In this document: piece after piece, positions 14,433 through 30,764 of the stretch
Layout: each line of letters begins with the position of its first letter
Position numbering within the stretch: position 1 is the stretch's first letter
Assembly (NCBI GenBank): GCA_951828385.1
Contig: OX639973.1
Span: 6,240,845-6,304,844, forward strand
DNA length: 64,000 bases
Reading direction: 5' to 3'
Source: an uncultured Poribacteria bacterium
Lineage (GTDB): Bacteria > Poribacteria > WGA-4E > WGA-3G
The notes under the pieces: generated by a model
What the model saw: the letters and a program-made list of their open reading frames with translations, nothing else
Database searches by the model: none
What the model was told of the DNA's origin: nothing
Program-made: the position numbers and the translations under genes

Positions 14433-15017
14433 ATGGCACCTATGGCAGCACCGACTTACCTAACGCCCGAAGCGTACCTTGAATTGGAACGTAAGGCGAC
14501 AACCAAAAACGAATATGTGAACGGAGAGCCCCTCGCGATAGCAGGTGCCAGTTTCGCACATAATTTCATCACGTTCGACACGGCAATTCAGCTTAACAAC
14601 CAATTGATGGATACGGAATGTCAAGTCGCTTCAACCGGTGATCTGCGCGTGAAAGTTGCTGAGACAGAATCCTACTTTTACCCAGATATTGTTGTTGTCT
14701 GTGGTGAACCACGCGCCGAGGATAACGTCTTTGACACACTCCTGAACCCAACGCTTATTGTAGAGGTGCTTTCAGCTTCCACTGAAATGTATGACAAAGA
14801 CGAAAAATTCGCACACTATCGCCAAATAGATTCTTTGCAAGAATACATTCTGATTTCACAAGATAAAGTGCAGGTGCTGCGATATCGTCGCCATGACCCC
14901 GAATGGATACCGACAGAATTTCGGGCACTTACGGATGTCGTGCCACTGCTATCTAACCAGTGTGAACTACCTTTACAGCACGTTTATAGACGCGTCAAAT
15001 TTGACAACGGCAATTAA
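14433..15017 (+). CDS. Uma2 family (DUF820) PD-(D/E)XK nuclease-like protein
   Basis: 194 residues from the ATG behind GGGGAAGGA. The core is typical of Uma2: YFYPDIVVVCG (Asp85), NPTLIVEVLSAST (Glu111), then KFAHYRQIDSLQEYILISQ. These proteins carry a restriction-endonuclease-like fold and are very abundant in Cyanobacteria and other environmental bacteria. Their biological role is unsettled, with transposon-related or TA-like roles proposed. It has its own promoter and stands between sat and a dehydrogenase gene. Confidence 0.85.
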   Translation: MAPMAAPTYLTPEAYLELERKATTKNEYVNGEPLAIAGASFAHNFITFDTAIQLNNQLMDTECQVASTGDLRVKVAETESYFYPDIVVVCGEPRAEDNVFDTLLNPTLIVEVLSASTEMYDKDEKFAHYRQIDSLQEYILISQDKVQVLRYRRHDPEWIPTEFRALTDVVPLLSNQCELPLQHVYRRVKFDNGN

Positions 15018-15053
15018 ATAGTTATCGACAACTGGAAACCGAGAACTATTATA

Positions 15054-16301
15054 GTGGAAGCCATTCTATATCACAAAAGCATCCCACGTTATCTTGCAAT
15101 GCGTTACCTTGGAAAACGGTGGCGGGGTCTCTACACGTCGCCGTTTTCCTGTGTACATCTCGTTGACATCCAGGAGCCAGAGCTGCCAACCTCCGAATGG
15201 GTCAAGGTCAAAACTCGGCTCAGTGGGATTTGTGGTTCCGATTTAGCGACGATCACGGGAAAAGGAAGTCCGTATTTTTCGCCGTTCACATCGACACCTT
15301 TTGTGTTAGGACATGAGATTGTCGGTGAAATCGCGGAGATCGGTGATGCGGTGGAGGGGTTCTCCATTGGTGCGAGAGTGGTGATTGAACCGGCACTTTC
15401 ATGTCTGGTGCGAGGAATTTCGCCGCCGTGCTATCAATGCCAAAACCTGCATTTCGCTAACTGTGAAAATATCACAAAAGGCGATATCTCTGAAGGCGTT
15501 CAGACCGGCTATTGTCGGGATACAGGTGGAGGATGGAGTCCTTATGTCCTTGCGCACCACTCACAACTTCATCTTGTGCCTGATGGTGTTTCGGACGAAA
15601 TTGCCGTGCTACTCGAACCCTTCGCCTGCGCGATACACGGCGTTTTGAAGGCAGCATACAACACAGCAGACAACATTTGTGTCATCGGCGGTGGCACGAT
15701 CGGACTCCTTACCGTTGCAGCACTTCGGATGCTCGGTTATCAAAACCGAATTCTTATCTTCGCCAAGTATCCACACCAACAGCAATTAGCACTTGACCTC
15801 GGTGCAAATGAGGTCATATTGCCGAATAGCAGTCGGTATACAGCCTTCTGTGAACTCACAGGCTCAGACCCGTATCAACCAGAGTGGGGACAACAGGTAT
15901 TAATCGGCGGTGTAGATATTACCTTTGATTGCATCGGCTCCAGTGTCACAATAGACGACGCGCTTCGTTTCACACACGCAAACGGCGAAGTCATCTTGCT
16001 CGGTATGCCGGGGATCCCCAAAAACATCGACTGGGTCTCAGTTTGGTATAAACAATTGAAAGTCGCAGGTGCCTATACGTATGGGATCGAAATGCACAAC
16101 GGCGAACAGGTGCATACCTTTGCACTCGGCATGCGGCTCCTCGAAGAAATGGGAGCTCAATTGCGTCCGTTGGTCATCAGACGCTTTCCACTGCGAGATT
16201 ATCGGCGTGCCATCCAGACGGCTTTGAATACTGGGAAAACCGCCACAGTGAAAACCGTATTTGACTTACGTACCGATGCTGTTGGCTATTTAATCGACTA
16301 A
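15054..16301 (+). CDS. zinc-dependent alcohol dehydrogenase-like protein (MDR family)
   Basis: 415 residues, longer than the usual ~340-380. Catalytic zinc ligands are visible at Cys60 (GICGSD) and His87-Glu88 (LGHEIVGE). A Cys cluster around 117-137 (C117, C126, C129, C137) fits the structural zinc lobe with modified spacing. The Rossmann motif is IGGGTIGLL (211-219). The start is GTG without a convincing ribosome site. The following DUF6785/6784 gene begins ten bases after its stop, so the two are probably one transcript. The substrate is unknown. Confidence 0.8.
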   Translation: MEAILYHKSIPRYLAMRYLGKRWRGLYTSPFSCVHLVDIQEPELPTSEWVKVKTRLSGICGSDLATITGKGSPYFSPFTSTPFVLGHEIVGEIAEIGDAVEGFSIGARVVIEPALSCLVRGISPPCYQCQNLHFANCENITKGDISEGVQTGYCRDTGGGWSPYVLAHHSQLHLVPDGVSDEIAVLLEPFACAIHGVLKAAYNTADNICVIGGGTIGLLTVAALRMLGYQNRILIFAKYPHQQQLALDLGANEVILPNSSRYTAFCELTGSDPYQPEWGQQVLIGGVDITFDCIGSSVTIDDALRFTHANGEVILLGMPGIPKNIDWVSVWYKQLKVAGAYTYGIEMHNGEQVHTFALGMRLLEEMGAQLRPLVIRRFPLRDYRRAIQTALNTGKTATVKTVFDLRTDAVGYLID

Positions 16302-16311
16302 TACATTTCCT

Positions 16312-18282
16312 ATGACTTCTCCTGTCACTTCGCAGAATTTTCCGCAAACGTCCCTTTCTACTTACAACAGTATCACAGCGCGGAGTGTCATCATAGGCAT
16401 GGTGGCGGTGATATGCCAATGCCTCGCCACTCCGTATAACGATTTCCATGTCGGCGGCACCTATCTCGCGGGGAACCATCTGCCCATCGCCGTCGTCTTC
16501 GTGATGCTGGTTTTTGTACTCGGTATCAATACACTGCTCAAGAGACTGAAACCCGGCACCGAATTGCGAGGCAGTGAACTCCTTATCATCTGGGGGATGA
16601 TGCTGGTCGCATCCGGTATCCCATCTTCAGGATTGATGCGCTACCTCGTCCCGCTCGCTGTCAGTCCATTCTACTTTGCTACCCCCGAAAACGAGTGGAT
16701 CACCCTCTTTCATCAGCACCTTCCAGACTGGATGGTCGTGAAAGATCCCAAAGCTGTCTTTTACTTTTACGAGCAATTGCCAGACGGCGATTCAATCCCA
16801 TGGCGGGCATGGTTGAAACCGATCGTCGGATGGAGTGCATTTGTCCTGATCTTCTATTTCGTCACCATCTGCTGGACGGTTATCCTCCGAAAACAGTGGG
16901 TAGAACATGAACGCTTCACCTTCCCGCTCGTTCAATTGCCGATGGAAATGTTCCAATCGCCATCAGGCAGCGCCCGCTTAAACCGGTTCTTCAAATCACC
17001 ATTGATGTGGTGTGGTTTTGCGATACCTGTTATATTGCACGGGTTAAAAGGATTACACCTCTACTTTCCAGCGATTCCGAGTCCGTCTGTCTATTTTCCG
17101 ATCTCCACATTCTTCACCGAAAAACCGCTATCTGCTTTGAACTGGTGGCCCTCCGTAAACCTGTTTATTTACCCTTCAGTCGTCGCTATCGTCTACCTGC
17201 TCACGCTCGAAATCTCGTTTAGTTTCTGGTTCTTTTTCCTCCTCGGCAAAATGGAGACGGTGCTGATCTATGCGACAGGTTCTAAAGTGAACCAGTGGGA
17301 CTTCCATCAAAACCAACAGATGGGTGCGCTGTTAGTCTTTATCGGATTCATCCTGTTTCTCGGCAAACGTCATTTCGGACGTGCATTCGCCACGATCTTT
17401 GGAAAACGCGTAAGCACCGACACGAATGAACCCTTACCTTATATCTGGGCAGTCGGTGGTTTGATTGCCGGTATCCTACTGCTCACACTGATATGTAGCC
17501 TTGCGGGGATGAGCGTATGGGTCGCACTCTTTATCCTCGGTATCTCCCTTGCCATCACAACAGTCGGCACATGGATGGTGACCAACGGCGGTTTGATGTT
17601 TATCCTCTACTCCTTCCTGCCGGGTGAATATCTGATTACGCTATTCGGCAGTGGGCGTGTGAACGCACCGAGTTGGACCTTGGTCGCTTATGAACGGGTC
17701 TTGATGTTCGACATGCGGGAAATCATGATGCCGAGCGTGATGAACAATTTCAAGCTTGCGGAACCGCTGCGTCTCAAACAACGTCCATTCCTACTTGCGA
17801 TGGGTATTGCCATTGTTTTGGCAATGGGTGTCTCTTACTATTCGTCCATAGACCTCGCCTATACACACGGTGCCGTCAACCTACAACACTGGACCTATAT
17901 GATCTCGACAACCTCCCCATTTAACCGTCTCACAAGTATTCTGCAACACCCGACTGGTATTGAATTGGAACGGCTCGGTTCGTTTATCTTCGGGGGTGCG
18001 ATGATGTTCGGCATGCTCTGGATGCGCCACCACTATCTCTGGTGGAAGCTACACCCGATCGGTTCTCTCATGATGACGAGTTATGCAACTTACTGCTTCT
18101 GGGGTTCATTTTTCATCGGTTGGTTTCTGAAATACACCACGCTCAAGTTCGGTGGCGTTGCCTATTACCGTAAACTCCGTCCGCTTATTTTAGGCGTTGT
18201 GTTAGGCGAATGCTTCATCGGTGGCATTTGGATTATTGTTGGACTTATGACCGGCATCGGCTATCGTCTATTGCCCGGCTAA
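16312..18282 (+). CDS. large polytopic membrane protein, DUF6785/DUF6784 type (second copy)
   Basis: 656 residues, a paralogue of the protein at 7.9-9.8 kb. It shares FATPENEWITLFHQHLPDW, LRKQWVEHERFTFPLVQLP, FKLAEPLRLKQ, YLWWKLHPIGSLM and FFIGWFLKYTTLKFGG in the same order. About a dozen membrane helices are spread over the length. The conserved RRQW/RKQWVE-ER-(S/T)-(Y/F)-P motif in a cytoplasmic-looking loop may be functional. It is closely linked to the zinc dehydrogenase gene upstream, so a role in taking up or exporting the substrate or product of that enzyme is a reasonable guess. Confidence 0.78.
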   Translation: MTSPVTSQNFPQTSLSTYNSITARSVIIGMVAVICQCLATPYNDFHVGGTYLAGNHLPIAVVFVMLVFVLGINTLLKRLKPGTELRGSELLIIWGMMLVASGIPSSGLMRYLVPLAVSPFYFATPENEWITLFHQHLPDWMVVKDPKAVFYFYEQLPDGDSIPWRAWLKPIVGWSAFVLIFYFVTICWTVILRKQWVEHERFTFPLVQLPMEMFQSPSGSARLNRFFKSPLMWCGFAIPVILHGLKGLHLYFPAIPSPSVYFPISTFFTEKPLSALNWWPSVNLFIYPSVVAIVYLLTLEISFSFWFFFLLGKMETVLIYATGSKVNQWDFHQNQQMGALLVFIGFILFLGKRHFGRAFATIFGKRVSTDTNEPLPYIWAVGGLIAGILLLTLICSLAGMSVWVALFILGISLAITTVGTWMVTNGGLMFILYSFLPGEYLITLFGSGRVNAPSWTLVAYERVLMFDMREIMMPSVMNNFKLAEPLRLKQRPFLLAMGIAIVLAMGVSYYSSIDLAYTHGAVNLQHWTYMISTTSPFNRLTSILQHPTGIELERLGSFIFGGAMMFGMLWMRHHYLWWKLHPIGSLMMTSYATYCFWGSFFIGWFLKYTTLKFGGVAYYRKLRPLILGVVLGECFIGGIWIIVGLMTGIGYRLLPG

Positions 18283-18305
18283 ATGGCGAATTCTCATAAC
18301 AAGAT

Positions 18306-18335
18306 TTGCATTATTGCTGCAAATTATGATAAAAT
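18306..18335 (+). promoter_or_regulatory. possible promoter of the methyltransferase gene
   Basis: TTGCAT, an 18-base spacer and TAAAAT lie in the 210-base gap before the methyltransferase gene. The -10 is about 160 bases before the chosen start, so a sizeable leader would result. Modest match only. Confidence 0.35.
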
Positions 18336-18492
18336 AATCGCAAGTTGTTTGGAATGGCAATAACGCTATTTTATGATTTGGAGTAAAAGATAAATATAAC
18401 ACAAAAATCGGATTGTCTACTGCCAATTTCGAGGAATGGTGTCCGATAATGGCTTCACAACCTCCGTTTATCAAGGAAGAACGGGATCCTCA

Positions 18493-20019
18493 ATGAACAA
18501 ACTCTATTTCGGCGATAATCTTGAAATCCTACGCGAGATGCCCGACGAACGCGTCCATCTAATATGCACCGACCCACCCTTCAACTCTGGACGCGACTAC
18601 AACACCTTCCTCGGTGACTCACTTGCACAGAAGAAGGCATTCACTGATACATGGACGTGGGACACCGCTGCCCAAGACGCTCGCGCCGACATTGAACAAC
18701 GTGCGTTTTCCAGTGATACCTATAAAGCACTCGATACTTGCCTTAAGGGTTATGATTTAGTGCTACAAAACGCCGTGTCTGGCAACAAAGGTGCGATGCG
18801 TGCCTATCTCACCTTTATGGGATCCCGCCTCGCCGAAATGCACCGTGTGCTAACATCGGAGGGTAGTATATACTTGCACTGCGATCCAACTGCCTCACAC
18901 TACCTCAAAGGTGTGATGGATGCTATTTGGGATCAGGAAAACCATAGTAAAAATGCATCTTTTCGGAATGAAATCGTCTGGTCATACCGCCGTTGGCCTG
19001 CAAAACATCCGAATTTTCAGCGAATGCACGATATTATTTTACGTTATGCAAAAGGCACAAACGTAACTTGGAATCAACTGTATGAACCCAAACCAGCGTC
19101 AACCCTTAAGAGATTTGGCAACAAGAAAATTAAAAGTGCCTATACACCAGATGGAAGGCGTGTACCATCTGAGGTAACAAACGAAGAATCGAGGGAGGTG
19201 CCACTCAGAGATGTATGGGAAATAAGCGTAATTGCGCCATCTGCTAAAGAACGCCTTGGCTATCCCACGCAGAAACCACTTGCCCTATACGAACGCATGA
19301 TAAAAGCTTCCAGTAATGAAGGAGACATCGTTCTCGATCCGTTCTGTGGCTGCGGCACCACCATTGATGCTGCGCACACCCTCAATCGACAATGGATGGG
19401 CATTGATATAACGATCCTCGCCTTGGATCCGATGCGTCAACGGTTGGCAGACCGACATGGATTGGAACCGTCCGTTGACTACCAGATCGAAGGTTACCCA
19501 ACAAACATGCAGGAAGTCCAAAACCTTTTGAAAGAGGGTGACAAACGCAAATATCACGACTTCTCGAATTGGGCGGTAACCCGGCTTGGGTTGAGACCCA
19601 CCAAAGATGTTGGCGATGGTGGACTTGATGGAGTCGGGCATGTCACATTATGGAATCCACAGCAGCTGAAAGAGACGAACGCCCGTATTCTCGCCGAGGT
19701 CAAGACAGGCAAACCTACTATCACCCAAGTTCGCGCCTTCTGTCGTGTGATGGATAAGAATAACGCGGAAGTCGGTATCTTTATTACCCTTGAACCTGTC
19801 ACCCCTAAAATGCGACAGGAAGCGCAGGACATGGGCACTTTCGAGCACAATAATAAAACCTATCCCCGCCTTCAATTCTGGCAATTAGATGATGCATACT
19901 TCGAGAATCCGGATATTATCAATACCCTCGTCCGCTTACCCGACGCGTGGCGCATCCGTCCCACCCAGAAATCAGAGCGTCATTTTGATGACCGACAGAT
20001 GCAACTTCTGCGTGGATAG
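18493..20019 (+). CDS. DNA methyltransferase fused to Mrr-like PD-(D/E)XK nuclease domain
   Basis: 508 residues. The N-terminal ~340 residues are a beta-class amino-methyltransferase: catalytic motif IV DPPF (27-30) comes first, then the SAM-binding motif I as DPFCGCGTT (282-290). The C-terminal ~150 residues contain GDGGLDG (Asp379) and ILAEVKTGK (Glu402, Lys404), then VGIFITLEP, the layout of Mrr_cat restriction domains. Methylation and cleavage activities may thus sit in one chain, like a single-polypeptide restriction-modification enzyme. I chose ATG at 18493 because AAGGAAGAACGGG precedes it and the protein then begins MNKLYFGDNLE; the frame could start 19 codons earlier. Confidence 0.85.
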   Translation: MNKLYFGDNLEILREMPDERVHLICTDPPFNSGRDYNTFLGDSLAQKKAFTDTWTWDTAAQDARADIEQRAFSSDTYKALDTCLKGYDLVLQNAVSGNKGAMRAYLTFMGSRLAEMHRVLTSEGSIYLHCDPTASHYLKGVMDAIWDQENHSKNASFRNEIVWSYRRWPAKHPNFQRMHDIILRYAKGTNVTWNQLYEPKPASTLKRFGNKKIKSAYTPDGRRVPSEVTNEESREVPLRDVWEISVIAPSAKERLGYPTQKPLALYERMIKASSNEGDIVLDPFCGCGTTIDAAHTLNRQWMGIDITILALDPMRQRLADRHGLEPSVDYQIEGYPTNMQEVQNLLKEGDKRKYHDFSNWAVTRLGLRPTKDVGDGGLDGVGHVTLWNPQQLKETNARILAEVKTGKPTITQVRAFCRVMDKNNAEVGIFITLEPVTPKMRQEAQDMGTFEHNNKTYPRLQFWQLDDAYFENPDIINTLVRLPDAWRIRPTQKSERHFDDRQMQLLRG

Positions 20020-20405
20020 GACCGGTAGGTTCGGTTTCCTAACCGAACCGGATTCTAAACTACCGTATTGCGTAGTGTTGTGCAATAACCAAGCACAAGA
20101 GACAAAAACCACGTCTTTGCTACGCAAAAGGTTCATACGCGAGTGAGACGAACCTTGACATTGTGAGGACACTCGGAAATGATAAAGCGTCAGTCTTTTG
20201 GGACTGACTTTGAGGGTTACTCCACGTAGTGCGTTTCCTTTGCTACGTGCGAATCGCCTGCTATCTTCTATGACGTGCATAGACGACACTGGATGTGGGC
20301 AGGTTAGACACGACGGTGTCTACAAAGGGACTTAAGGAATCCCGTAGAGAACTGTGTTTTTCAGATGGACATAGATTAACATAGTTTTTTACTAACAGAT
20401 CACTC
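20020..20405. other. intergenic, several hairpins, no gene
   Basis: The 386 bases hold a GGTAGGTTCGG/CCGAACC palindrome directly after the methyltransferase stop (20025-20054), a GTCAGTC...GACTGAC hairpin near 20190-20209 and a CACGTAG...CTACGTG hairpin near 20223-20250. The texture (several stems, no open frame, ending in an ACGGTGTCT segment) would fit a structured RNA or the decayed end of a mobile element. I cannot identify either. Confidence 0.35.
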
Positions 20406-20744
20406 ATGGCGAATAACACACCCGTCACTCGCAAAGACCATTGGAGCCGTCCGGTAGCTATGGCTCCCGACGGGCAATGGATCTCTTTGCGGGAAGTGAT
20501 AGACGACGAACCGGCAAGGTTTTCATTTGCCCAATTGTCTTTTGAGCAACAGTCGGAATTGGTTGCGGAACGTATTCGACAACGCCCTGTGTTTGACGTA
20601 GGTATCTTGGGACTGGGAGTATTTAGCAAGAAGCGTGCTATTAACGAGGTCCGGGCGCGAACACGTATAGGGTGCACGCTCATTGAGGTTGAACAGCGCA
20701 TGATAGCACTCTTGATTGAACGTGCCCGCGAAGGAATTCTCTAA
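20406..20744 (+). CDS. small protein of unknown function
   Basis: 112 residues, mixed helical. The C-terminal half (VFDVGILGLGVFSKKRAINE, then EVEQRMIALLIERAREG) looks like two helices with a Gly-rich turn. I do not recognise the family. It lies downstream of the methyltransferase-nuclease gene, separated by 386 bases, and could belong to the same restriction locus, but nothing in the sequence proves this. No clear ribosome site precedes the ATG, so the start is uncertain. Confidence 0.5.
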   Translation: MANNTPVTRKDHWSRPVAMAPDGQWISLREVIDDEPARFSFAQLSFEQQSELVAERIRQRPVFDVGILGLGVFSKKRAINEVRARTRIGCTLIEVEQRMIALLIERAREGIL

Positions 20745-20944
20745 TTTGGGAAATAAGAACGTTATCTCAGACATAAGATGACGTATTGAATCGGGATCTA
20801 ATTGGAATACAACCGTGACCATCTCTGTGCCCCTTCAGTCAATGCAAAATGGGGGGATAAAAAAGCAAGAATCGTATAACTATTGAGGGGACTACCCAAA
20901 ACACAAGGCTGTTAAAATTCCGCCAAACATGGAAGATTTGAAAC

Positions 20945-20991
20945 TGTCCTATTTGGTGCAATCTATTTTGAGACTTGCACTATTTAGGGCA
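20945..20991. promoter_or_regulatory. pair of 16-bp dyads 31 bp apart, copy 1
   Basis: TGTCCTATTTGGTGCA (20945-20960) and TGCACTATTTAGGGCA (20976-20991) have the form TGCAC-N6-GTGCA with deviations, centre to centre 31 bp, i.e. three helical turns. The whole ~57-bp block recurs at 22566-22622. It looks like a pair of operators for a dimeric regulator. Confidence 0.5.
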
Positions 20992-21134
20992 ATTTTTGTT
21001 AAGACAGTCAGTTAGGTCCGTAGGTGTTTTGCTTGGGTGTTTCCCTTAGGTTGAGCGGTAAAACCTCAGGTCCCTTGTGTTGCTATCCAAACAGCAGTTT
21101 GCCAAGACTCGCTTCCTGCAAAAAACAAAAAAAT

Positions 21135-21163
21135 TGACATTTGTGCGAATTTAAGGTATACTT
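21135..21163 (+). promoter_or_regulatory. near-consensus sigma70 promoter inside the gene-free region
   Basis: Perfect TTGACA (21135-21140), exactly 17 bases, then TATACT (21158-21163). This is the best promoter match in the window, yet the nearest downstream gene starts 590 bases away. It implies either a non-coding transcript or a very long 5' leader. Confidence 0.7.
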
Positions 21164-21753
21164 AATACATGGACACAAACGCGATTCGGTAATCGGGTGC
21201 AGATGCCTCGTCAAGGTACCCACTACCTAAAGGTAGGAGCTTGTGCTTCGTCGCGACTGCGGTTTTCTCAAAGAGTCCACCGTCTTATTGTCGCTCCACA
21301 ATAGTGCCCAAGCGAACTATGCACCGAAGTGCCTGATCTTATGTGACATGTGATTTATCAACGGGTGCGGTTTTTACACCTGCTACCCTCTACGTGCAAT
21401 GGATACCCGAAAGGGTTTTGTCAATATAGAGGCGTGTGAGGCTTTTACGTGATTGTCTCAATTGACGAGTGCTCCAACAACACATCAATCACAACCCATG
21501 CCGAACACTATGAATTTAGACGAATTAGGAAGGAAAAGGTTTAGTTTTTTACAACACCCTTCGCCGTCTACATCCGGCAAGCTAAAGCATGGGGATTTGA
21601 CGGTGGAGTGTTAAATTTCCCAAAAATGCAGGTGGTGTCTAACTTCCGAACCGTTTTTGGTAAAAAATCGCGTTTGAGTCAAGGCACACGTAGGTTTGCC
21701 GGATTTTTTTGAAAAAATTTTATTGTCCAAACTTTAGTAGGAGGTTGAACGGC

Positions 21754-22455
21754 ATGAAAATTATGTTTGTATTAGCAGGATTTGTGTTGATGGTAGCCTA
21801 TTGTGTTATCGGAAACCCGATCAACATGGCACATGCGGAGGAAATCTTGGGAGTAGGAACGGATTCGTTGTTAGGAGGAGACCTAACCGACCCAGAAGAC
21901 GATGGTGATCCTGAAGCAGATGAGGGTTACAACGCCATTTTCTCAGCTAACGAGGAACCTGGATTCGCAGGCGGGGAATTTTCGTTTAACGTCTTCGATA
22001 ACATCCTGGGTCCCGGCAATGACAAATGGTGCTGCGGACGTGGGGGCGGTATTCCGGAGGAAGGTCTACACGTGACAGCTGAGTTTGAGGAAGCGTACGC
22101 ATTAACACACTTCACCCTATCTTCAGCGAACGATGTTCCTGCAAGGGACCCGACAGTGTGGGAAGTTCAGGGGTCGAACGACGGCGAGGAGTTTACGACC
22201 ATCTATGCGCACGACGGGGATAGCGTTTGGACTGAGCGACTGCAAGTCGCCCTTTTTGAGGCAGGGGCAGATTTCGAGGTTCAAACCGTCGGGTATAAGT
22301 TTTTCCGGCATGTTACTTTTGACACCGCATCGAACCCGGCTGGGGCGTACTTTCAAATTGGCGAAATTGAGTACTTCGGCGATGCTAATTTGACCGCCGT
22401 AGACCCTAAAGCCAAGCTCACAACCACATGGGGAAGCATCAAAAACGCCCGATAA
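21754..22455 (+). CDS. secreted discoidin-like (F5/8 type C) protein with C-terminal K-L-x-T-x-W-G tag
   Basis: 233 residues from the ATG behind TAGGAGG. A signal peptide (MKIMFVLAGFVLMVAYCVIG..., cleavage near AHA-EEI) is followed by a single domain whose central part matches carbohydrate-binding discoidin folds: LTHFTLSSANDVPARDPTVW then WEVQGSND, and later YFQIGEIEYFGD. The protein ends VDPKAKLTTTWGSIKNAR, a tail shared with three other secreted proteins here. Upstream is the long gene-free promoter region, downstream a clear terminator, so it is transcribed alone. Probably exported or cell-surface. Confidence 0.75.
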   Translation: MKIMFVLAGFVLMVAYCVIGNPINMAHAEEILGVGTDSLLGGDLTDPEDDGDPEADEGYNAIFSANEEPGFAGGEFSFNVFDNILGPGNDKWCCGRGGGIPEEGLHVTAEFEEAYALTHFTLSSANDVPARDPTVWEVQGSNDGEEFTTIYAHDGDSVWTERLQVALFEAGADFEVQTVGYKFFRHVTFDTASNPAGAYFQIGEIEYFGDANLTAVDPKAKLTTTWGSIKNAR

Positions 22456-22483
22456 GCGCAAAAATATCGGACATTTTCTAAAT

Positions 22484-22529
22484 CGGAAACCTGAATCCAG
22501 TCATAACTGGGTTTGGGTTTCCGTTTTTT
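22484..22529 (+). terminator. intrinsic terminator of the discoidin-like gene
   Basis: CGGAAACC pairs with GGTTTCCG and an inner CCAG with CTGG, followed directly by TTTTTT. It sits about 30 bases after the stop codon. Confidence 0.8.
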
Positions 22530-22568
22530 ATTTCTGTAAATCTCGTCAAATAACGAAAGGCCGGAAAC

Positions 22569-22615
22569 TGCACCATTTCGGGCAATCTATTATGAGGTTT
22601 GCACTATTCGGTGCA
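22569..22615. promoter_or_regulatory. pair of 16-bp dyads 31 bp apart, copy 2
   Basis: TGCACCATTTCGGGCA (22569-22584) and the perfect dyad TGCACTATTCGGTGCA (22600-22615), centre spacing 31 bp. Flanking bases (GAAACTG before, AATTT after) also match the copy at 20.94 kb. It lies about 107 bp upstream of the -35 of the long operon. Confidence 0.55.
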
Positions 22616-22721
22616 ATTTCATCAAGAATGCCAGTGGTATCACACCCCAAACTGGCACGAAACTTGCTATCCTTACTGATAATTTCTTTTCTCTGTGAAC
22701 ACCTCTATCAGATAAATAAAT

Positions 22722-22750
22722 TTGCACATTCCCATAAATTGTGCTAAAAT
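22722..22750 (+). promoter_or_regulatory. sigma70-type promoter of the LarA-like gene and downstream operon
   Basis: TTGCAC (22722-22727), 17-base spacer, TAAAAT (22745-22750), about 70 bases before the first gene. It is the only good promoter match I find between here and 33.8 kb on this strand. Confidence 0.5.
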
Positions 22751-22819
22751 AAATTGGTGATTGCAAAGCCGTCCGAACATCAACTGAAATCGTCTCAGGA
22801 AACGAGTGGCCCCGTTTAA

Positions 22820-24379
22820 ATGAAATATTTCACCTACTTTGGAAACCATCTCATCAATGCGAAACTGCCGGATAATTCAGAGGTTTATTACGCCAAGCCT
22901 CCGCTGCCGGGAATTAAGCGCGCAGCACTGAGTGAACACACGCAGCGTGCCTTTGAAAACCCACTTGAGATGCCGCCGCTCAATGAACTCGTCAACGGCA
23001 ACTCAAAAGTGCTTATCCTGTTCGACGATAACTGCCAACCGTTTCCAGCCACCAAGAAACCGGACCTGCGGCAGATTATGATTGAGACGCTCCTGAAGAT
23101 GCTCTACGGGTACGGTGTCGAGAAAAAGAATATCGAACTGATGTGCGCCGTTGCGCTGCACCGTAAGATGAAAGAACACGAACTCGCCTATATGCTCGGC
23201 AAAGACATCATGGACGAGTTCTATCCGCATCAACTCCGAAACTTTGATGCGGAAGATGCCGACCAGATTGTTGCGGTAGGACACACGGAACACGACGAAA
23301 TCGTTGAGACCGATAAGGCAGCCCTTGAAGCCGACCTTGTGATTTACGTCGATATGATACAGATTCCGCTCAACGGTGGACATAAGTCCGTCGCAGTCGG
23401 TCTCGGTACGTATAACTCCATAGCACCACACCATTCGCCGCACATGACAGCAGAGAGTCCGCACGTGATGCAACCGGAAGGTTCGCACATGCACGCTTGT
23501 ATTGAGCGGATGAGTCGCCTTATCCAGAAAGAAACCCCCATCTTAGTTCTTGAAGCAGCGATGAATGGTGCAATCTATCCGTTCCATCTCCGTTATGTCG
23601 GAAAACCAAACCGGGACTGTAACGTGGCAGAACGACTCGTAAAAGCCTTTACACCGGCAACCTTATCGCTCTTGCCTGAATCATTGCGTTACGCGATTCT
23701 CAAGAGTGTGCAGACAGACTATGAACCGATACAGATCAACGCAGGCGACATTGATGCCGTTCACGCAAGAACGTTAGCGTCAATGAAGGATCAGTTGGCA
23801 ATAGATATCCCGCGTCAGTTTAGTACACTGGTGTTTGGACTCCCCGATATGAGTCCGTACGCCGTCGATGCGCGTATCAATCCTGTGTTGGTGGTCAGCG
23901 ACATTTTGGGGTACGTCTTTAACTGGTTCTATAACAAACCGATCATTAAAAAGAACGGCGTTGTGATCATCATGAACCCGACGTATGAGATTTTCCACGA
24001 GGAATATCACGTCGCCTACAAACAGTTTTACGATGAGGTCCTTGCCGAAACGACGGAACCGTTTGAGATGCAGCAGAAGTTTCAGGAGAAATACGCGAAG
24101 GACGCGTATCTCATCGACTGCTATCGGAACAAATTCGCGCATCACGGTTTTCATCCGTTCACCGTCTGGTATTGGGCGACGTATCCGCTGAAATACCTAT
24201 CTAAAGTCATTCTTGTGGGACCGAAGGAGCCGAGGGTGGCACAACGGTTGGGGGTTGATTGGGCAAAGAACTTAGACGATGCGCTCGCGATGGCGCGCGA
24301 AATCTCCGGTGATGATGATGTCGTCGCTTTGACGATGCCGCCGTTTTTCTACGCAAACGTCGGAGAGTCCAATGATTAA
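22820..24379 (+). CDS. LarA-like (DUF2088) nickel-pincer racemase/epimerase family protein
   Basis: 519 residues. It has the DUF2088 landmarks: ILFDDNCQPFP (68-76, where LarA has DHTRP), VALHRKMKEHEL (111-122, with His114 at the catalytic His position) and PLNGGHKSVAVGLG (183-196, with Lys189 at the position that carries the cofactor in LarA). LarA uses a nickel pincer nucleotide to racemise lactate; relatives act on other 2-hydroxyacids. This protein is about 95 residues longer than LarA and has Gln in place of the conserved Arg, so its substrate probably differs. No larB, larC or larE genes are in the window. It starts the putative long operon. Confidence 0.75.
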   Translation: MKYFTYFGNHLINAKLPDNSEVYYAKPPLPGIKRAALSEHTQRAFENPLEMPPLNELVNGNSKVLILFDDNCQPFPATKKPDLRQIMIETLLKMLYGYGVEKKNIELMCAVALHRKMKEHELAYMLGKDIMDEFYPHQLRNFDAEDADQIVAVGHTEHDEIVETDKAALEADLVIYVDMIQIPLNGGHKSVAVGLGTYNSIAPHHSPHMTAESPHVMQPEGSHMHACIERMSRLIQKETPILVLEAAMNGAIYPFHLRYVGKPNRDCNVAERLVKAFTPATLSLLPESLRYAILKSVQTDYEPIQINAGDIDAVHARTLASMKDQLAIDIPRQFSTLVFGLPDMSPYAVDARINPVLVVSDILGYVFNWFYNKPIIKKNGVVIIMNPTYEIFHEEYHVAYKQFYDEVLAETTEPFEMQQKFQEKYAKDAYLIDCYRNKFAHHGFHPFTVWYWATYPLKYLSKVILVGPKEPRVAQRLGVDWAKNLDDALAMAREISGDDDVVALTMPPFFYANVGESND

Positions 24380-24590
24380 AGATTCCCCAATTGTTGAAGA
24401 TACTCGGCGTGTTCGCCGCATGATCTCTGAAAAATTCGATCACGATATCGATCGGTATATTGCCTACTTGCAAAGTGAGGCAGCCGCGCGTCAAGCGAAG
24501 AAAGCCGTTCAATGCTCCGATAGTAGCGATAATCTCATTGCTGACACAGAAAACCGTGAGCGTACAGGGAAAGAAAACAGGACGAATTGA
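24372..24590 (+). CDS. small protein with R-x2-R-x2-IS-x2-FDHDI-x-R motif
   Basis: 72 residues, overlapping the end of the LarA-like gene by eight bases, with GGAGAG just upstream of the ATG. The segment DTRRVRRMISEKFDHDIDRY is closely matched by the small protein at 45.3 kb (EVREIRHKISAQFDHDIGRL) and loosely by the N-terminus of the protein at 38.4 kb. The family is a recurrent small, charged, helical one; it may be antitoxin-like, but I know no tested function. Confidence 0.6.
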   Translation: MIKDSPIVEDTRRVRRMISEKFDHDIDRYIAYLQSEAAARQAKKAVQCSDSSDNLIADTENRERTGKENRTN

Positions 24591-24612
24591 GCCTGCGACA
24601 AGGAGCCTCACA

Positions 24613-24906
24613 ATGAACGACGAAAAAATCACGACGCTGGATATGTTTCAGTTGCTGCGGGAAGATATAAAATCTTCAGAGGCACGCCTTTTGTCAGATA
24701 TGCAAAAGATTAGGGAAGATATAAAATCTTCAGAGGCACGCCTTTTGTCAGACATACACGCTTTGGAGGATCGATTACGAAAAGTTGAGGAAGCCGTCGC
24801 TGGCAAAAAAGCGGTGACAACTTTTCAAAAAACGCTCATGGATTGGCTCTTCCGAATTGCCGCCGCGGTCGGTGTCGGAGGTGCGATAAAGGCGTTTTTC
24901 TCATAG
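24613..24906 (+). CDS. small coiled-coil protein with C-terminal membrane helix
   Basis: 98 residues from the ATG behind CAAGGAGCC. Residues ~15-65 are a long amphipathic coiled coil with an internal 18-residue tandem repeat (REDIKSSEARLLSDM / REDIKSSEARLLSDI). A hydrophobic segment near the C-terminus (WLFRIAAAVGVGGAIKAFF) probably inserts in the membrane. The arrangement resembles small phage or TA-associated anchor proteins, but no family was recognised. It sits 22 bases after the preceding small gene. Confidence 0.6.
   Translation: MNDEKITTLDMFQLLREDIKSSEARLLSDMQKIREDIKSSEARLLSDIHALEDRLRKVEEAVAGKKAVTTFQKTLMDWLFRIAAAVGVGGAIKAFFS
24659..24752 (+). repeat. 54-bp-period tandem duplication inside the coiled-coil gene
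   Basis: A ~40-base block beginning GGGAAGATATAAAATCTTCA occurs at 24659 and again at 24713 with no mismatch in the core. The period is 54 bases, exactly 18 codons, so the frame is kept. The near-perfect identity marks a recent slippage or duplication. Confidence 0.85.
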
Positions 24907-24942
24907 TTTCAATATAGTCCCATCAAACGATGGCAATGGTAA

Positions 24943-26016
24943 ATGTGCAAACAAATGAAAAATACGGACATTTTAATACCCACAAGTACGATCGGAAGTT
25001 ACGCACCACCGAGTTGGCTGTGCGTGACACTGGAGGCAATCGGACGCGGCGAACTCGGCGAAACCGATATTAACGAAACCTTTGATGACGCAGTCCGAAC
25101 CGCTATCGCTGACCAAGAACGCGCTGGGGTTGACATTGTCACCGAAGGCGAAATGCGTCGCCAAGATTTTGTGCTCGGTTTCTATGAACGACTCACTGGA
25201 TTAGAAGAACTCCCTGCTCCGAGAACACAGGGCCCCGACGGACACGATCAGCGCGGCAAATGGCTACCCTCTGTTCCGCTTGCTGCACCCGATGGACTCG
25301 GTATCCTTCCTGAATTTGAGTTTGCGAAAAACGAAACGACGAAACCGATCAAGGTAACATGCCCAGGTCCATTTACGCTCTCAGGCCGCATTCAGACAGG
25401 CGGACTCTACAAAGAACGCCTTGAAGTTGCTTACGCGTGTGCAGAGATAATCAATACAGAACTCCGCCAGCTTGTGGCAGCAGGTGCAGAATTCATCCAA
25501 TTAGATGAACCCTCTTACGCTGTCTATCCTGACCGACCCCAGGAATTTGTGAAGTTGTTCAACCACACGGTTGAAGGTTTAGGGCGTAGCTCGCAAGCTC
25601 ATATTGAACAGTCTGCTAAGATCGGACTGCATATCTGTTTCGGAAACTACCGCGGTAGGGCAGTCGGCAAACGTTCCTATCGTCCGCTTTTCCCGCATAT
25701 CCTTGACGCAGCATTTGACCAACTTGCCTTAGAATTTGCAAATCGAGAGATGGCAGAAATCGGGTTGTGGAGCGAATTTCCAAACGACAAAGAACTCGCA
25801 GCGGGGCTCATCGATGTCAAAAACTACTATGTAGAAACAGCAGAGGATGTGGCGGCACTGATCCGAGAAGCACTCCAGCATGTACATCCTGAAAAACTTG
25901 CGATTACACCGGATTGCGGTTTCAGTCAAACAGCGCGGTGGGCAGCCGCTGCCAAATTGAAAACGATGGTTGCCGGTACTGAAATCGTCCGCCGGGAACT
26001 CACAGGAACAGGATAA
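24943..26016 (+). CDS. cobalamin-independent methionine synthase family protein (MetE C-terminal-domain-like)
   Basis: 357 residues, the size of the stand-alone MetE catalytic domain. Visible features are TSTIGSYAPPSWL at the N-terminus, FIQLDEPSYA (185-193), GLHICFGN (His230 and Cys232 as zinc ligands) and ITPDCGFSQTARW (Cys325 as third zinc ligand). MetE-type domains transfer methyl groups to thiols; this short form may use a donor other than 5-methyltetrahydrofolate polyglutamate, or act in another thiol-alkyl transfer. It is 36 bases after the preceding gene and seven before the ClpX-like gene, supporting one operon. Confidence 0.82.
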   Translation: MCKQMKNTDILIPTSTIGSYAPPSWLCVTLEAIGRGELGETDINETFDDAVRTAIADQERAGVDIVTEGEMRRQDFVLGFYERLTGLEELPAPRTQGPDGHDQRGKWLPSVPLAAPDGLGILPEFEFAKNETTKPIKVTCPGPFTLSGRIQTGGLYKERLEVAYACAEIINTELRQLVAAGAEFIQLDEPSYAVYPDRPQEFVKLFNHTVEGLGRSSQAHIEQSAKIGLHICFGNYRGRAVGKRSYRPLFPHILDAAFDQLALEFANREMAEIGLWSEFPNDKELAAGLIDVKNYYVETAEDVAALIREALQHVHPEKLAITPDCGFSQTARWAAAAKLKTMVAGTEIVRRELTGTG

Positions 26017-26023
26017 CAAGACT

Positions 26024-27589
26024 ATGAACACGAATAAAAAAATTCCCACACCTCAAGAAATTGAGAAGGAATTCCAAGAATATTTGGAAAAGAAATATGG
26101 TGGCACTGTCCGCGTGATGAACGCGACGGCTAACGAACCGACACCTGACGGAGAAGCGGAGGCCCCTGAACCGAAAAAAACTTTCGATTTGAAATTTGAT
26201 CTCAAACCGAGGGAGATTAAGCAATACCTTGACCGCTACGTGATTAAGCAGGACGAAGCGAAAAAAGCACTTGCCATCGCTGTCTGCGACCACTATAACC
26301 ACGTTCGAGAATGCCATGAAAACCCTGATGCTGCCGATACCGACTATTCAAAACAGAACATCGTTATGCTCGGTCCGACGGGGGTTGGTAAGACCTATCT
26401 TATCCGACATATCGCCAAACTCATCGGGGTGCCGTTTGTCAAAGCCGATGCTACCCGATTCAGTGAGACGGGTTACGTCGGTGCAAATGTAGACGATTTA
26501 ATCCGTGAATTGGTAACACAAGCCGACGACACCCTCGAACTGGCACAATATGGTATTATCTACCTCGATGAAGCCGACAAAATCGCGACACCGCCGAATA
26601 TCATCGGACGCGATGTGAGCGGACGCGGCGTGCAAACCGGACTCCTCAAATTGATGGAAGAGACCGAAGTCGATCTGCGGGCGGGAAACGATGTCGCCTC
26701 TCAAATGCGTGCCGCGATGGAATTTCAGAAAAGCGGTAAAGTTGACAAAGAGGTTATTAACACGCGTCATATCCTGTTCATCATCAGCGGGGCGTTTACC
26801 GGTATGGAGAAGATCATCAAAAAACGCATGCATCAAAGTAGGATCGGGTTCAACGCTGAAATCGTCAGCCAAACGGATGATGCCTCACAGTATCTTGAGG
26901 ATGTCACACCGAAGGATTTCATCGACTTCGGTTTTGAACCTGAGTTCATCGGACGACTCCCCGTGCATGTTGTTTGTAATGAACTTGCGGTAGACGATCT
27001 TTTCCATATTCTGAAACATTCCGAGGGCTCTATTATCCGGCAGTATGAAAACGCTTTCCGTGCGTATGGGATCAGAGTTCTGTTTTCCAATAACGGTCTA
27101 CGCCGAATCGCTGAAAAAGCGATTGCGCAGAAAACAGGTGCGCGCGCTTTAATGACAGTCTGCGAAAAGGTTTTACGCGACTATAAATTTGAACTGCCCT
27201 CCACCGGCGTTAGCGAATTCGTCGTCACGGACGCGGTTGTAGACGCCCCAGATGTTGAACTCAAGCGTATCACCGAAGATGCCGATTACAATCGTAGGAC
27301 GGTGATGCACGAGCAAGTCCGCCGGTATGAGGCACAGTTTTACGCTGAACACCAGTTACAGATTCAGTTCGATGCCGAAGCCACTGCGCTTATCTGTGAA
27401 CGTGCGATGGCAGACGCAACAGAAATACAACAGATCTGCGACCAACTCCTTGAAAGTTATCAACACGGTTTGAACCTTATCAAGCAGAACACTGAACAGA
27501 CCGCATTCACTTTTCCAAAAGGTGTTGTAGAAAACCCCGATCAGGTGCTTGAAGAGTGGATTCGCGCATCATATACCACCAAACGTTGA
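26024..27589 (+). CDS. ClpX-like AAA+ unfoldase lacking the zinc-binding domain
   Basis: 521 residues. Walker A GPTGVGKT (117-124), pore loop GYVG (150-153), Walker B IIYLDEAD (178-185), and an IGF tripeptide (274-276) at the place where ClpX docks on ClpP. The GAR sensor-2 motif appears as KTGARALM. The Cys4 zinc domain that begins normal ClpX is missing; instead there is a charged N-terminal stretch (residues 1-60). The C-terminal ~110 residues are an extension. This suggests a specialised unfoldase that may still feed ClpP. ATG at 26024 is preferred over an upstream in-frame codon that overlaps the MetE-like gene. Confidence 0.85.
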   Translation: MNTNKKIPTPQEIEKEFQEYLEKKYGGTVRVMNATANEPTPDGEAEAPEPKKTFDLKFDLKPREIKQYLDRYVIKQDEAKKALAIAVCDHYNHVRECHENPDAADTDYSKQNIVMLGPTGVGKTYLIRHIAKLIGVPFVKADATRFSETGYVGANVDDLIRELVTQADDTLELAQYGIIYLDEADKIATPPNIIGRDVSGRGVQTGLLKLMEETEVDLRAGNDVASQMRAAMEFQKSGKVDKEVINTRHILFIISGAFTGMEKIIKKRMHQSRIGFNAEIVSQTDDASQYLEDVTPKDFIDFGFEPEFIGRLPVHVVCNELAVDDLFHILKHSEGSIIRQYENAFRAYGIRVLFSNNGLRRIAEKAIAQKTGARALMTVCEKVLRDYKFELPSTGVSEFVVTDAVVDAPDVELKRITEDADYNRRTVMHEQVRRYEAQFYAEHQLQIQFDAEATALICERAMADATEIQQICDQLLESYQHGLNLIKQNTEQTAFTFPKGVVENPDQVLEEWIRASYTTKR

Positions 27590-29138: not shown

Positions 29139-30764
29139 ATGCCGAGCAAAAACACTATAGGACCGTTGTTTGGATTCCTCGCCTTAATCTTCGGTTTTGC
29201 TGCAGTGGTAAGCCTGCTTTTTGGCGAAAAAACCGTCTTTTGGATTCTTCTGCTCCTCTGCGCTACTGCATTGGTTATTTTTGCACGACTGCGATTTGCT
29301 GACTTTGTTAACTTTTTTACCAGCCGTCAAGCCCGTTACGGTGCAAATGTTGCGCTGAGTATCATTGGCGTTATCGGGATAGCGGTCTTCGTCAACGCTA
29401 TTGTTGTACAGCGGTTCGATAAAAGGGCTGATCTGACACGCGACCGACTCTATAGCCTCTCAGAACCGACCCGAAAAATTCTCAAATCCCTTAACATTGA
29501 GATCCAGATAACTACATTTATAAGCGAAAAGGTTCAAACAGCAGAACGACAACGCACAATAGAGATGTTAGAACTCTATCAGCGTGAAACTGACTTTTTA
29601 ACCATCACTCATGCGAATCCTTACATTGACATTCAACTTGTAGAGAAGTATAATATTCGCAGAGATGGAACCGTAATTTTTGAGACACCGGGACGGCAAG
29701 AAAAGGTCACCATACTTGAAGAGCAAAAATTCACAAGTGCCATCCTCAAACTCGTCCGGAAACAGACGAAGAAAATTTATTTTACTGATGGACACGAAGA
29801 ACGTTCCTTGGGCGATTTCAACAGTGCAGGATATAGCGAAGTGAAAGCGGAGCTCGAAAATCAGAATTATGCTGCAGTCTCTCTGTCACTTCTGAAGCAC
29901 CCCGCTGTTCCAGCAGATTGTGAGGTGCTCGTCATTGCCGGTCCCAAAAACGTGTTGACTTCGCACGAAATTGGATTGGTGTCAAAATATCTTGCACAGA
30001 ACGGGAAACTGCTCCTATTGCTCGATCCATCGGTAACTTCTGCAAAAGATGTGAACAAAGGACTCGTTCAACTGATGAAAAGATGGGGGATAGCCATAGG
30101 CAACGACTTGGTAGTTGATAGAGTCAACTCTGTTTTCGAGTTGGGACCCGCTGCGCCTTTCTCAAGTTTTGAACCGCATGACATCACCCGTTCTGCTATG
30201 GAGGTGTCAATCCCGTTCCCGTTTACCCGTTCTGTTACGCCACTGGAAAATCGCAAAGCAACGCTCAGTGTGAAAAGCCTCGCAAAAACTATTAATCCCA
30301 CCGGTGTAAGTTGGGCAGAAACGGAGCGTGAAACCGATGGAACCTTCAACACTGATGCATACACGCCCGGGGTAGATATGGCGGGCCCTATATCTATCGC
30401 AGTCGCAGCTGAACAGAAAAATGAACCGCGTCAACCAGAAGCAAACCCGCAAAACGGAAACACTGCGGCTAACGGGACAGAAAGTCCAACGCGAATTGTT
30501 GTTTTCGGGGATTCAGACTTCGCGACAAACCTCTTTTTCCAACCTGCAAGTCGCGACCTGTTTTTAGCGACAATCAATTGGCTCACATTAGAGGAAGACC
30601 TCATCGCTATCCGCCCTATTGATTTGAGGCAACAAGCCTTACGTGCTATGACTGTCCAAGATATCCGTCTCGTGCAGATAACCTCTGTCTTTCTGATTCC
30701 TTCAATCGTCTTTATTGGTGGGTTGATCGTCTGGTGGCAGCGCCGCAAAGGAGAGAATGCGTGA
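29139..30764 (+). CDS. GldG-like ABC transporter auxiliary protein
   Basis: 541 residues. Two to three N-terminal membrane helices (residues ~8-110) are followed by an extracytoplasmic domain starting RADLTRDRLYSLSEPTRKIL, the hallmark of GldG/ABC_transp_aux proteins. It continues with IYFTDGHEERSL and LLLLLDPSV, and closes with a C-terminal helix (IVFIGGLIVWW) and a basic tail. It forms a complex with the ABC-2 permease encoded upstream (by analogy to GldFG). The next gene overlaps its stop by four bases. Confidence 0.85.
   Translation: MPSKNTIGPLFGFLALIFGFAAVVSLLFGEKTVFWILLLLCATALVIFARLRFADFVNFFTSRQARYGANVALSIIGVIGIAVFVNAIVVQRFDKRADLTRDRLYSLSEPTRKILKSLNIEIQITTFISEKVQTAERQRTIEMLELYQRETDFLTITHANPYIDIQLVEKYNIRRDGTVIFETPGRQEKVTILEEQKFTSAILKLVRKQTKKIYFTDGHEERSLGDFNSAGYSEVKAELENQNYAAVSLSLLKHPAVPADCEVLVIAGPKNVLTSHEIGLVSKYLAQNGKLLLLLDPSVTSAKDVNKGLVQLMKRWGIAIGNDLVVDRVNSVFELGPAAPFSSFEPHDITRSAMEVSIPFPFTRSVTPLENRKATLSVKSLAKTINPTGVSWAETERETDGTFNTDAYTPGVDMAGPISIAVAAEQKNEPRQPEANPQNGNTAANGTESPTRIVVFGDSDFATNLFFQPASRDLFLATINWLTLEEDLIAIRPIDLRQQALRAMTVQDIRLVQITSVFLIPSIVFIGGLIVWWQRRKGENA

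Follow-up and report, generated by a model that had tools for sequence, protein, structure and literature searches.

A CRISPR leader probably captured as the 5' region of a secreted-protein gene and later split by a transposase-less IS200/IS605-type insertion in Candidatus Poribacteria

We analyzed a stretch of 64,000 nucleotides from the genome of an uncultured poribacterium that lives as a sponge symbiont (hereafter the window), in which a predicted promoter is followed by a long gene-free gap and then by the gene of a secreted protein. Comparison with related loci, all of them from Candidatus Poribacteria, indicates that the 5' region of this gene is a CRISPR leader, which could not be seen from the window alone. 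We consider it very likely that the leader was captured in front of the secreted-protein gene and was later split by a 401-bp element of the IS200/IS605 type; the gap would then have, with the same high confidence, a historical cause, namely a captured CRISPR leader plus a transposon. An earlier note on this DNA, made from the letters alone, had reported a TTGACA-17-TATACT promoter with no gene for about 590 bases after it, and both observations were confirmed: the hexamers and their 17-nt spacer are located at 21134-21162, and 591 nt lie between the -10 hexamer and the ATG at 21754. The features to which we refer are the following (window positions):

21122..21209, plus strand: upstream half of the split leader, 90-93% identical to loci L068, L069 and L073
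21134..21162, plus strand: predicted promoter of the captured CRISPR leader (TTGACA 21134-21139, 17-nt spacer, TATACT 21157-21162; 11/12 consensus)
21175..21186, plus strand: element A, ACAAACGCGATT, complementary to B in the window, and to B and C in array leaders
21210..21610, minus strand: transposase-less IS200/IS605-type insertion, 401 bp, with an empty site in three relatives, ends common to tnpA/tnpB elements and its right end at the low coordinates
21210..21313, minus strand: right end of the insertion, with a terminal hairpin at about 21220-21238; the region where TnpB elements make guide RNA
21560..21610, minus strand: left end of the insertion, an imperfect hairpin CCGTC...GACGG, preceded by TTTAA on the minus strand
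21611..21720, plus strand: downstream leader half, directly adjoining 21209 in L068 and L073; holds element B
21666-21676, plus strand: element B, AATCGCGTTTG, within the downstream leader half
21754..22455, plus strand: secreted-protein gene, 233 aa, F5/8 type C-like (PF00754 E 4.3e-5, 24.1 bits, below the cut-off of 28.2), with orthologues in relatives

The insertion is delimited by its empty site. Position 21209 abuts 21611 exactly in L068 and L073, and two bases stand between them in L069, where the upstream half corresponds to window positions 21120-21207 (21122-21209 in the other two); since these relatives join 21209 to 21611, 21210-21610 is an insertion, its junctions being read from the single assembly of the window genome. 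It lies after TTTAA read on the minus strand, with a short target at its left end and no target duplication. In the same genome the segments at about 21208-21313 and 21559-21615 recur as dozens of partial copies. Homologous copies with tnpB between their ends, for which the earlier note had recommended a search, do exist: in L009 and L010 these sequences border tnpA and tnpB genes (E 2.3e-41 for the IS200/IS605 transposase, E 7e-69 for guided TnpB), and the window copy has about 104 and 50 bp in common with the autonomous L010. Among 29 tabulated right-end copies, 18 have TnpB nearby, eight have both ends without TnpB (408-529 bp between the outer match ends) and three consist of the right end only; TTTAA precedes 8 of the 13 readable left ends, a fourteenth lying outside the fetched loci. 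The middle of the insert contains no remnant of TnpA or TnpB (one chance-level match, E 1.9), and the longest open stretch within 21210-21610 is 52 codons. A degraded protein gene, also considered in the earlier note, was discarded as the content of the gap, as no remnant of one was found in the insert. One TnpB protein has 50 matches within the window's genome (G000), ranging from 100% to 25% identity.

In the TnpB family the right end is the established source of guide RNA. That of the insertion is well conserved, and its predicted fold is a terminal hairpin; hairpins are found near both ends. This guide-RNA end faces the minus strand and the plus-strand promoter lies outside the element; as the element is antisense to the promoter, transcription of its guide RNA by this promoter was rejected. 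The earlier idea of IS200/IS605-like remains with a guide-type RNA region is partly right: both ends of such an element are present and the right end is conserved, but the element is in antisense and the promoter is not its own. The would-be guide, that is the flank just outside the right end, matches leader sequence (16 nt without mismatch in the array leader L074), as an insertion into a leader would predict. A boxA-type antitermination signal, sought by eye at the TTTAA site, was rejected, not being conserved in the leader at 497 kb of the same genome.

The window leader carries the near-consensus hexamers of array leaders, and this predicted TTGACA/TATACT promoter is common to CRISPR leaders and to the gene-linked relatives L068, L069 and L073. 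It had been described as the strongest in the window, which a whole-window scan contradicted: two sites, at 29626 (+) and 43203 (-), match the consensus at 12/12 and exceed its 11/12. Five sites of at least 11/12 are present, more than expected by chance given that 40 first-order Markov simulations had a mean of 1.2 and none reached five; within 15000-27000 our site is the best among 14 of at least 9/12, a class for which shuffles give 15.2. As for the hairpins said to follow the promoter, they do occur at both ends of the IS200/IS605-type element, and a helix between A and B is predicted once the insert is removed, but the 533-nt stretch as a whole folds just modestly better than its shuffles (z -1.95, 4/100). 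No Rfam 15 family was matched at the gathering threshold in the whole window, nor at the gathering score in seven loci with intact leaders; four sub-threshold matches at 21976-22580 fall outside the gap and look like chance. A free-standing structured RNA, another suggestion of the earlier note, was not upheld, the relatives showing no conserved unit of 590 nt and Rfam giving nothing at gathering.

Both flanks of the insert are homologous to DNA found directly before CRISPR arrays. Stretches 21127-21187 and 21613-21720 are 75% and 76% identical, respectively, to the leader of the 497-kb array of the own genome, and identity to leaders of relatives rises up to about 90%. CRISPR arrays occupy about 465.7-470.5 and 492.0-497.4 kb of that genome, and the genes between them match Cas1 (E 2.7e-90), a separate reverse transcriptase (RT; 3.8e-98), Cas10 (5.9e-72), a CARF-HEPN protein (1.9e-134) and Csx10-, Csx19-, Csx7- and Cas6-like proteins; most of these last four matches are below curated cut-offs, and for this reason we call the cas locus "III-D-like". 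With 21615-21760 as query, 20 of 97 genomes gave a match (16 among the 67 good ones); where the match was strong and the place was fetched, an array in most cases adjoins it. A full leader used as query matched 21 of 60 genomes, all from the same genus, and R1, a covariance model of the A-to-B part of the leader built from 22 sequences (three gene-linked), gave hits in 33 of 72 genomes from the order, spread over 4 of 10 genera. When 59 leader copies were scanned downstream, a set that leaves out the window, its three orthologues, the array-bearing L088 and L207 (whose leader, at 496 kb, is split), 44 had at least two in-phase repeats, 14 had no in-phase array and L074 had one repeat followed by the contig edge. 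The window itself contains no CRISPR repeat with up to three mismatches allowed and no array-like repeats, and no repeat array directly follows its leader; we therefore regard it as leader-derived sequence and not as a working leader. Homology to leaders stops near 21720, before the place of element C. The 12-mer AATCGCGTTTGG has two occurrences in the own genome, both within leader sequence.

In the three relatives of the same genus (L068, L069, L073) the promoter and leader flanks constitute the 5' region of the secreted-protein gene, which agrees in part with the earlier proposal of a regulatory leader of this gene. Of 67 secreted-gene loci fetched, all scanned with an HMM made from only six leaders, 58 were tabulated, and just four of these have leader sequence: L104, L107 and L110 (the loci of L069, L068 and L073, respectively) and, in part, L114. 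The leader is thus not the 5' region native to this family. In L114 the promoter and A are retained, after which the sequence changes to the upstream region common to other family members. When 39 leaders were placed in a tree, those linked to the secreted gene, five in all, nested among CRISPR leaders and needed one label change; they fall in a 14-row set that includes nine CRISPR leaders and has a support of 99/97. The gene-linked clade itself has a support of 71/82, with L114 filling 41% of the columns, a bootstrap that had not settled and an uncertain rooting. Such nesting suggests that a CRISPR leader became a gene promoter, the direction from CRISPR leader to gene being better supported than the reverse. 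No genome with leader, array and secreted gene together was found; loss of an array at this very locus is plausible, with no intermediate found. The secreted gene as a mobile cassette with a hard 5' boundary was rejected, given that similar sequence extends further upstream in several loci. The secreted F5/8C-like family (L103-L166) is multicopy in many Poribacteria, usually with a 5' region of its own (ACTCACGTAAAAGTGAG hairpin); records of Planctomycetales and Verrucomicrobiales also contain relatives of this family.

A DUF6785 gene is located upstream of the leader in L069 and L114; in L069 (genome G029) the leader comes directly after it, and in the window, where the DUF6785 gene ends at 18282, a methyltransferase gene and other sequence separate the two. 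Positions 18436-20744 comprise a DNA methyltransferase with an Mrr-like C-terminal part, a multicopy element (20051-20398) and a 112-aa ORF. This element is non-coding, has four copies of 96-98% identity in the own genome (L030-L033), all ending a few bases before different ATGs, and more distant ones in L034-L036. Its full copies start with a tRNA-like T-arm, and L034 has sub-threshold Rfam matches to mascRNA and tmRNA; the element could be a mobile structured 5' leader. Two other repeats were noted upstream of the promoter: a short palindromic repeat (GGTTCGGTTTCCTAACCGAACC core) at 20018-20057, of which the own genome has dozens of copies, and a short stretch at 21012-21068 with copies at several places of that genome, including one opposite-orientation pair about 250 bp apart.

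Across the order the leader family stands before further protein genes as well. At 543 kb in the own genome (L213) the leader is followed by the 3' part of a repeat and then by a 90-aa lipoprotein-like ORF. The leader is followed in L244/L257 by the gene of a type ISP restriction enzyme of 1599 aa (Type_ISP_C E 3.7e-91), and in L245/L258 by a P-loop-like start fused to IS982 transposase sequence. Genes of type ISP restriction enzymes adjoin leader copies in two genomes, downstream in L257 (G035) and divergent in L261 (G000, 543 kb). Loci L265 (G051) and L266 (G047), from another genus, both have the leader and exactly one repeat in front of the same P-loop ORF, of which the start is present (165 aa in L265; AAA_14 E 8.9e-4, below the cut-off), an arrangement with a solo repeat that may be kept by selection. 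The leaders of L271 and L278 precede short ORFs without a Pfam match; six other copies (L077, L078, L246, L267, L268 and L272) look like decayed arrays, and in L202 the promoter is missing and a single degenerate repeat is present.

Array leaders have three short elements, A, B and C, and the window has A and B only. Over 45 array-linked leaders (set A5), standard pairs fill 90.2% of the A-C cells, and both sides are altered in 22 cells (shuffle mean 6.0, 0/500 as high; slid registers: at most 6). The A-B comparison of the same leaders gave 85.2% standard pairs and 18 cells changed on both sides (mean 7.9, 0/500 as high; slid registers up to 10). Compensatory changes therefore exceed shuffled and slid controls in array leaders, with the reservations that relatedness is only partly controlled, that cells do not count as independent events, and that a DNA motif present in three copies could show covariation too. 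In L175, L176, L201 and L206, A reads ACGAGA and TCTCGT stands in B and C alike, and in L264 A is CAAACATCA, paired with TGATGTTTG in C. RNAalifold chose A-C unprompted for the first 19 leaders. Energy models rated A-C no less stable than A-B in 32 of 34 leaders and gave A-B low probabilities; mean predicted pairing in full leaders was 0.01 for A-B and 0.48 for A-C, and with the transcripts cut before C, A-B reached 0.15, values which count against the idea of a switch. At least nine consecutive pairs between the A and C regions were seen in 36/45 array-linked but 4/14 array-less copies (p 0.0016), a contrast that ignores relatedness, omits the C-less leaders of the secreted gene and counts the contig-cut L074 as array-linked. 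For such longest helices the background is high, with shuffled A giving means of 6.8 (A-B) and 7.4 (A-C) and maxima of 12 and 15, and some of the A-C helices counted begin in the core just after A. An A-B hairpin of roughly 100 nt is predicted for the window minus its insert and for L068, L069 and L073.

We infer from these patterns that the A-C and A-B complementarity would form RNA helices, and the A-C helix, conserved as it is with arrays, probably matters for array transcription or for integration into the array. Only tentatively do we extend this to an order-wide scheme, in which leaders of RT-associated type III-D-like arrays would form a long-range helix between A, near the 5' end, and C, some 50 nt ahead of the first repeat, for which B would compete; acting as an antiterminator or attenuator of a new kind, this helix would set whether the long untranslated array is transcribed, and the promoter-leader module would have been reused repeatedly for genes, defence genes included, and the window would be one such reuse with A parted from B.

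The sequence of events that best accounts for the locus can be proposed as follows. The front part (promoter, A, core and B) of a type III-D-like, RT-associated array leader of the same poribacterial genus would have joined the secreted-protein gene, by array loss or by recombination, before the window genome split from those of L068, L069 and L073. The present 21122-21753 would originally have been a compact promoter plus 5' untranslated region, with 190 nt from the -10 to the ATG. Afterwards the 401-bp transposase-less element would have jumped, in antisense, into TTTAA in the leader core, so that an extra 401 nt would now stand between the gene and its promoter and A would be parted from B. 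RNA would start a few nt before A and run into the secreted-protein gene, which the promoter presumably drives. In the relatives A and B could fold back and close a hairpin, possibly with no effect on the gene; the insertion may alter its expression.

Other explanations of the leader module have to be weighed against capture. It might be a regulatory RNA used by arrays and genes alike, that is a regulon rather than a captured part of a CRISPR system, and its presence before unrelated genes (the type ISP restriction enzyme, the lipoprotein-like ORF, the P-loop ORF in two genomes) would fit. We hold this to be unlikely, however: array-linked copies dominate (44/59 with at least two in-phase repeats), several gene-linked copies retain a single or partial repeat, as expected of array remnants, and A-C complementarity is mostly lost without an array (at least nine pairs in 4/14 versus 36/45). 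That the gene's own promoter was the source, and was borrowed by CRISPR arrays, draws on the uncertain rooting of the leader tree and strikes us as most improbable, since gene-linked leaders fall inside one of many groups of CRISPR leaders, and several genera of the order have array-linked leaders, whereas the secreted-gene leader was seen in just five loci of the same genus.

The promoter could also yield a free-standing non-coding RNA or the guide RNA of the element, for which the 591 gene-free nt and the modest folding energy (z -1.95) may be quoted; with the element in antisense, relatives without the insert retaining promoter, leader and gene, and Rfam giving no match, there is very little chance that this is so. 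A less improbable doubt concerns the pairing itself. A, B and C may be three copies of a DNA site bound by a protein (a regulator or integration factor) and not RNA-pairing segments, a reading which we think possible but doubtful. The concerted changes of A, B and C in L175, L176, L201 and L206 fit one protein that reads all three, as does the weak predicted A-B pairing; yet A and C change jointly in L081, L086 and L247 with B retaining another letter, G-U pairs are frequent at one position (A-C 5/45, A-B 10/45), and the 12-mer AATCGCGTTTGG is absent elsewhere in the own genome.

CRISPR leaders are usually viewed as functional only together with their array. A leader serving as the 5' region of a gene, with the same family before other genes, suggests that leaders may supply new promoters. 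The leader alignment moreover provides a testable RNA model, with three short elements, compensatory changes across several genera and an RT-carrying type III-D-like system adjoining. Among the titles and abstract openings of the open-access literature we recognised no report of a CRISPR leader with a conserved helix or a structured RNA, nor of one taken by a protein gene or broken by an insertion.

Compared with the RT-associated type III-D-like leaders of Candidatus Poribacteria, the window shares promoter, A, B and core, and differs in having no repeat or array, no C and no repeat-proximal part, with a protein gene in their place. The insert resembles other transposase-less (MITE/PATE-like) IS200/IS605 elements in its autonomous-copy ends, TTTAA target, end hairpins and lack of a transposase, and is unusual only in its landing place. 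As in TnpB guide (omega, or right-end) RNAs, its conserved right end adjoins a would-be guide from the flank, in a genome with many TnpB genes; unlike them, this copy lacks TnpB and any guide role is putative. CreTA, with its ectopic repeats (PMC9458426), offers a parallel for CRISPR parts outside arrays beside genes, L265, L266 and L213 retaining a single or partial repeat; here it is the leader that is the common part, and no toxin or guide was identified. The passages of PMC3124441 and PMC5513706 that we consulted describe no such leader helix. A precedent is PhrS of Pseudomonas, a small RNA whose pairing with a CRISPR leader blocks Rho termination (PMC6700203). Both cases involve RNA pairing within a CRISPR leader, contributed there by a separate small RNA and here by predicted complementarity inside the leader, and this precedent makes a role of the leader helix in transcription plausible.
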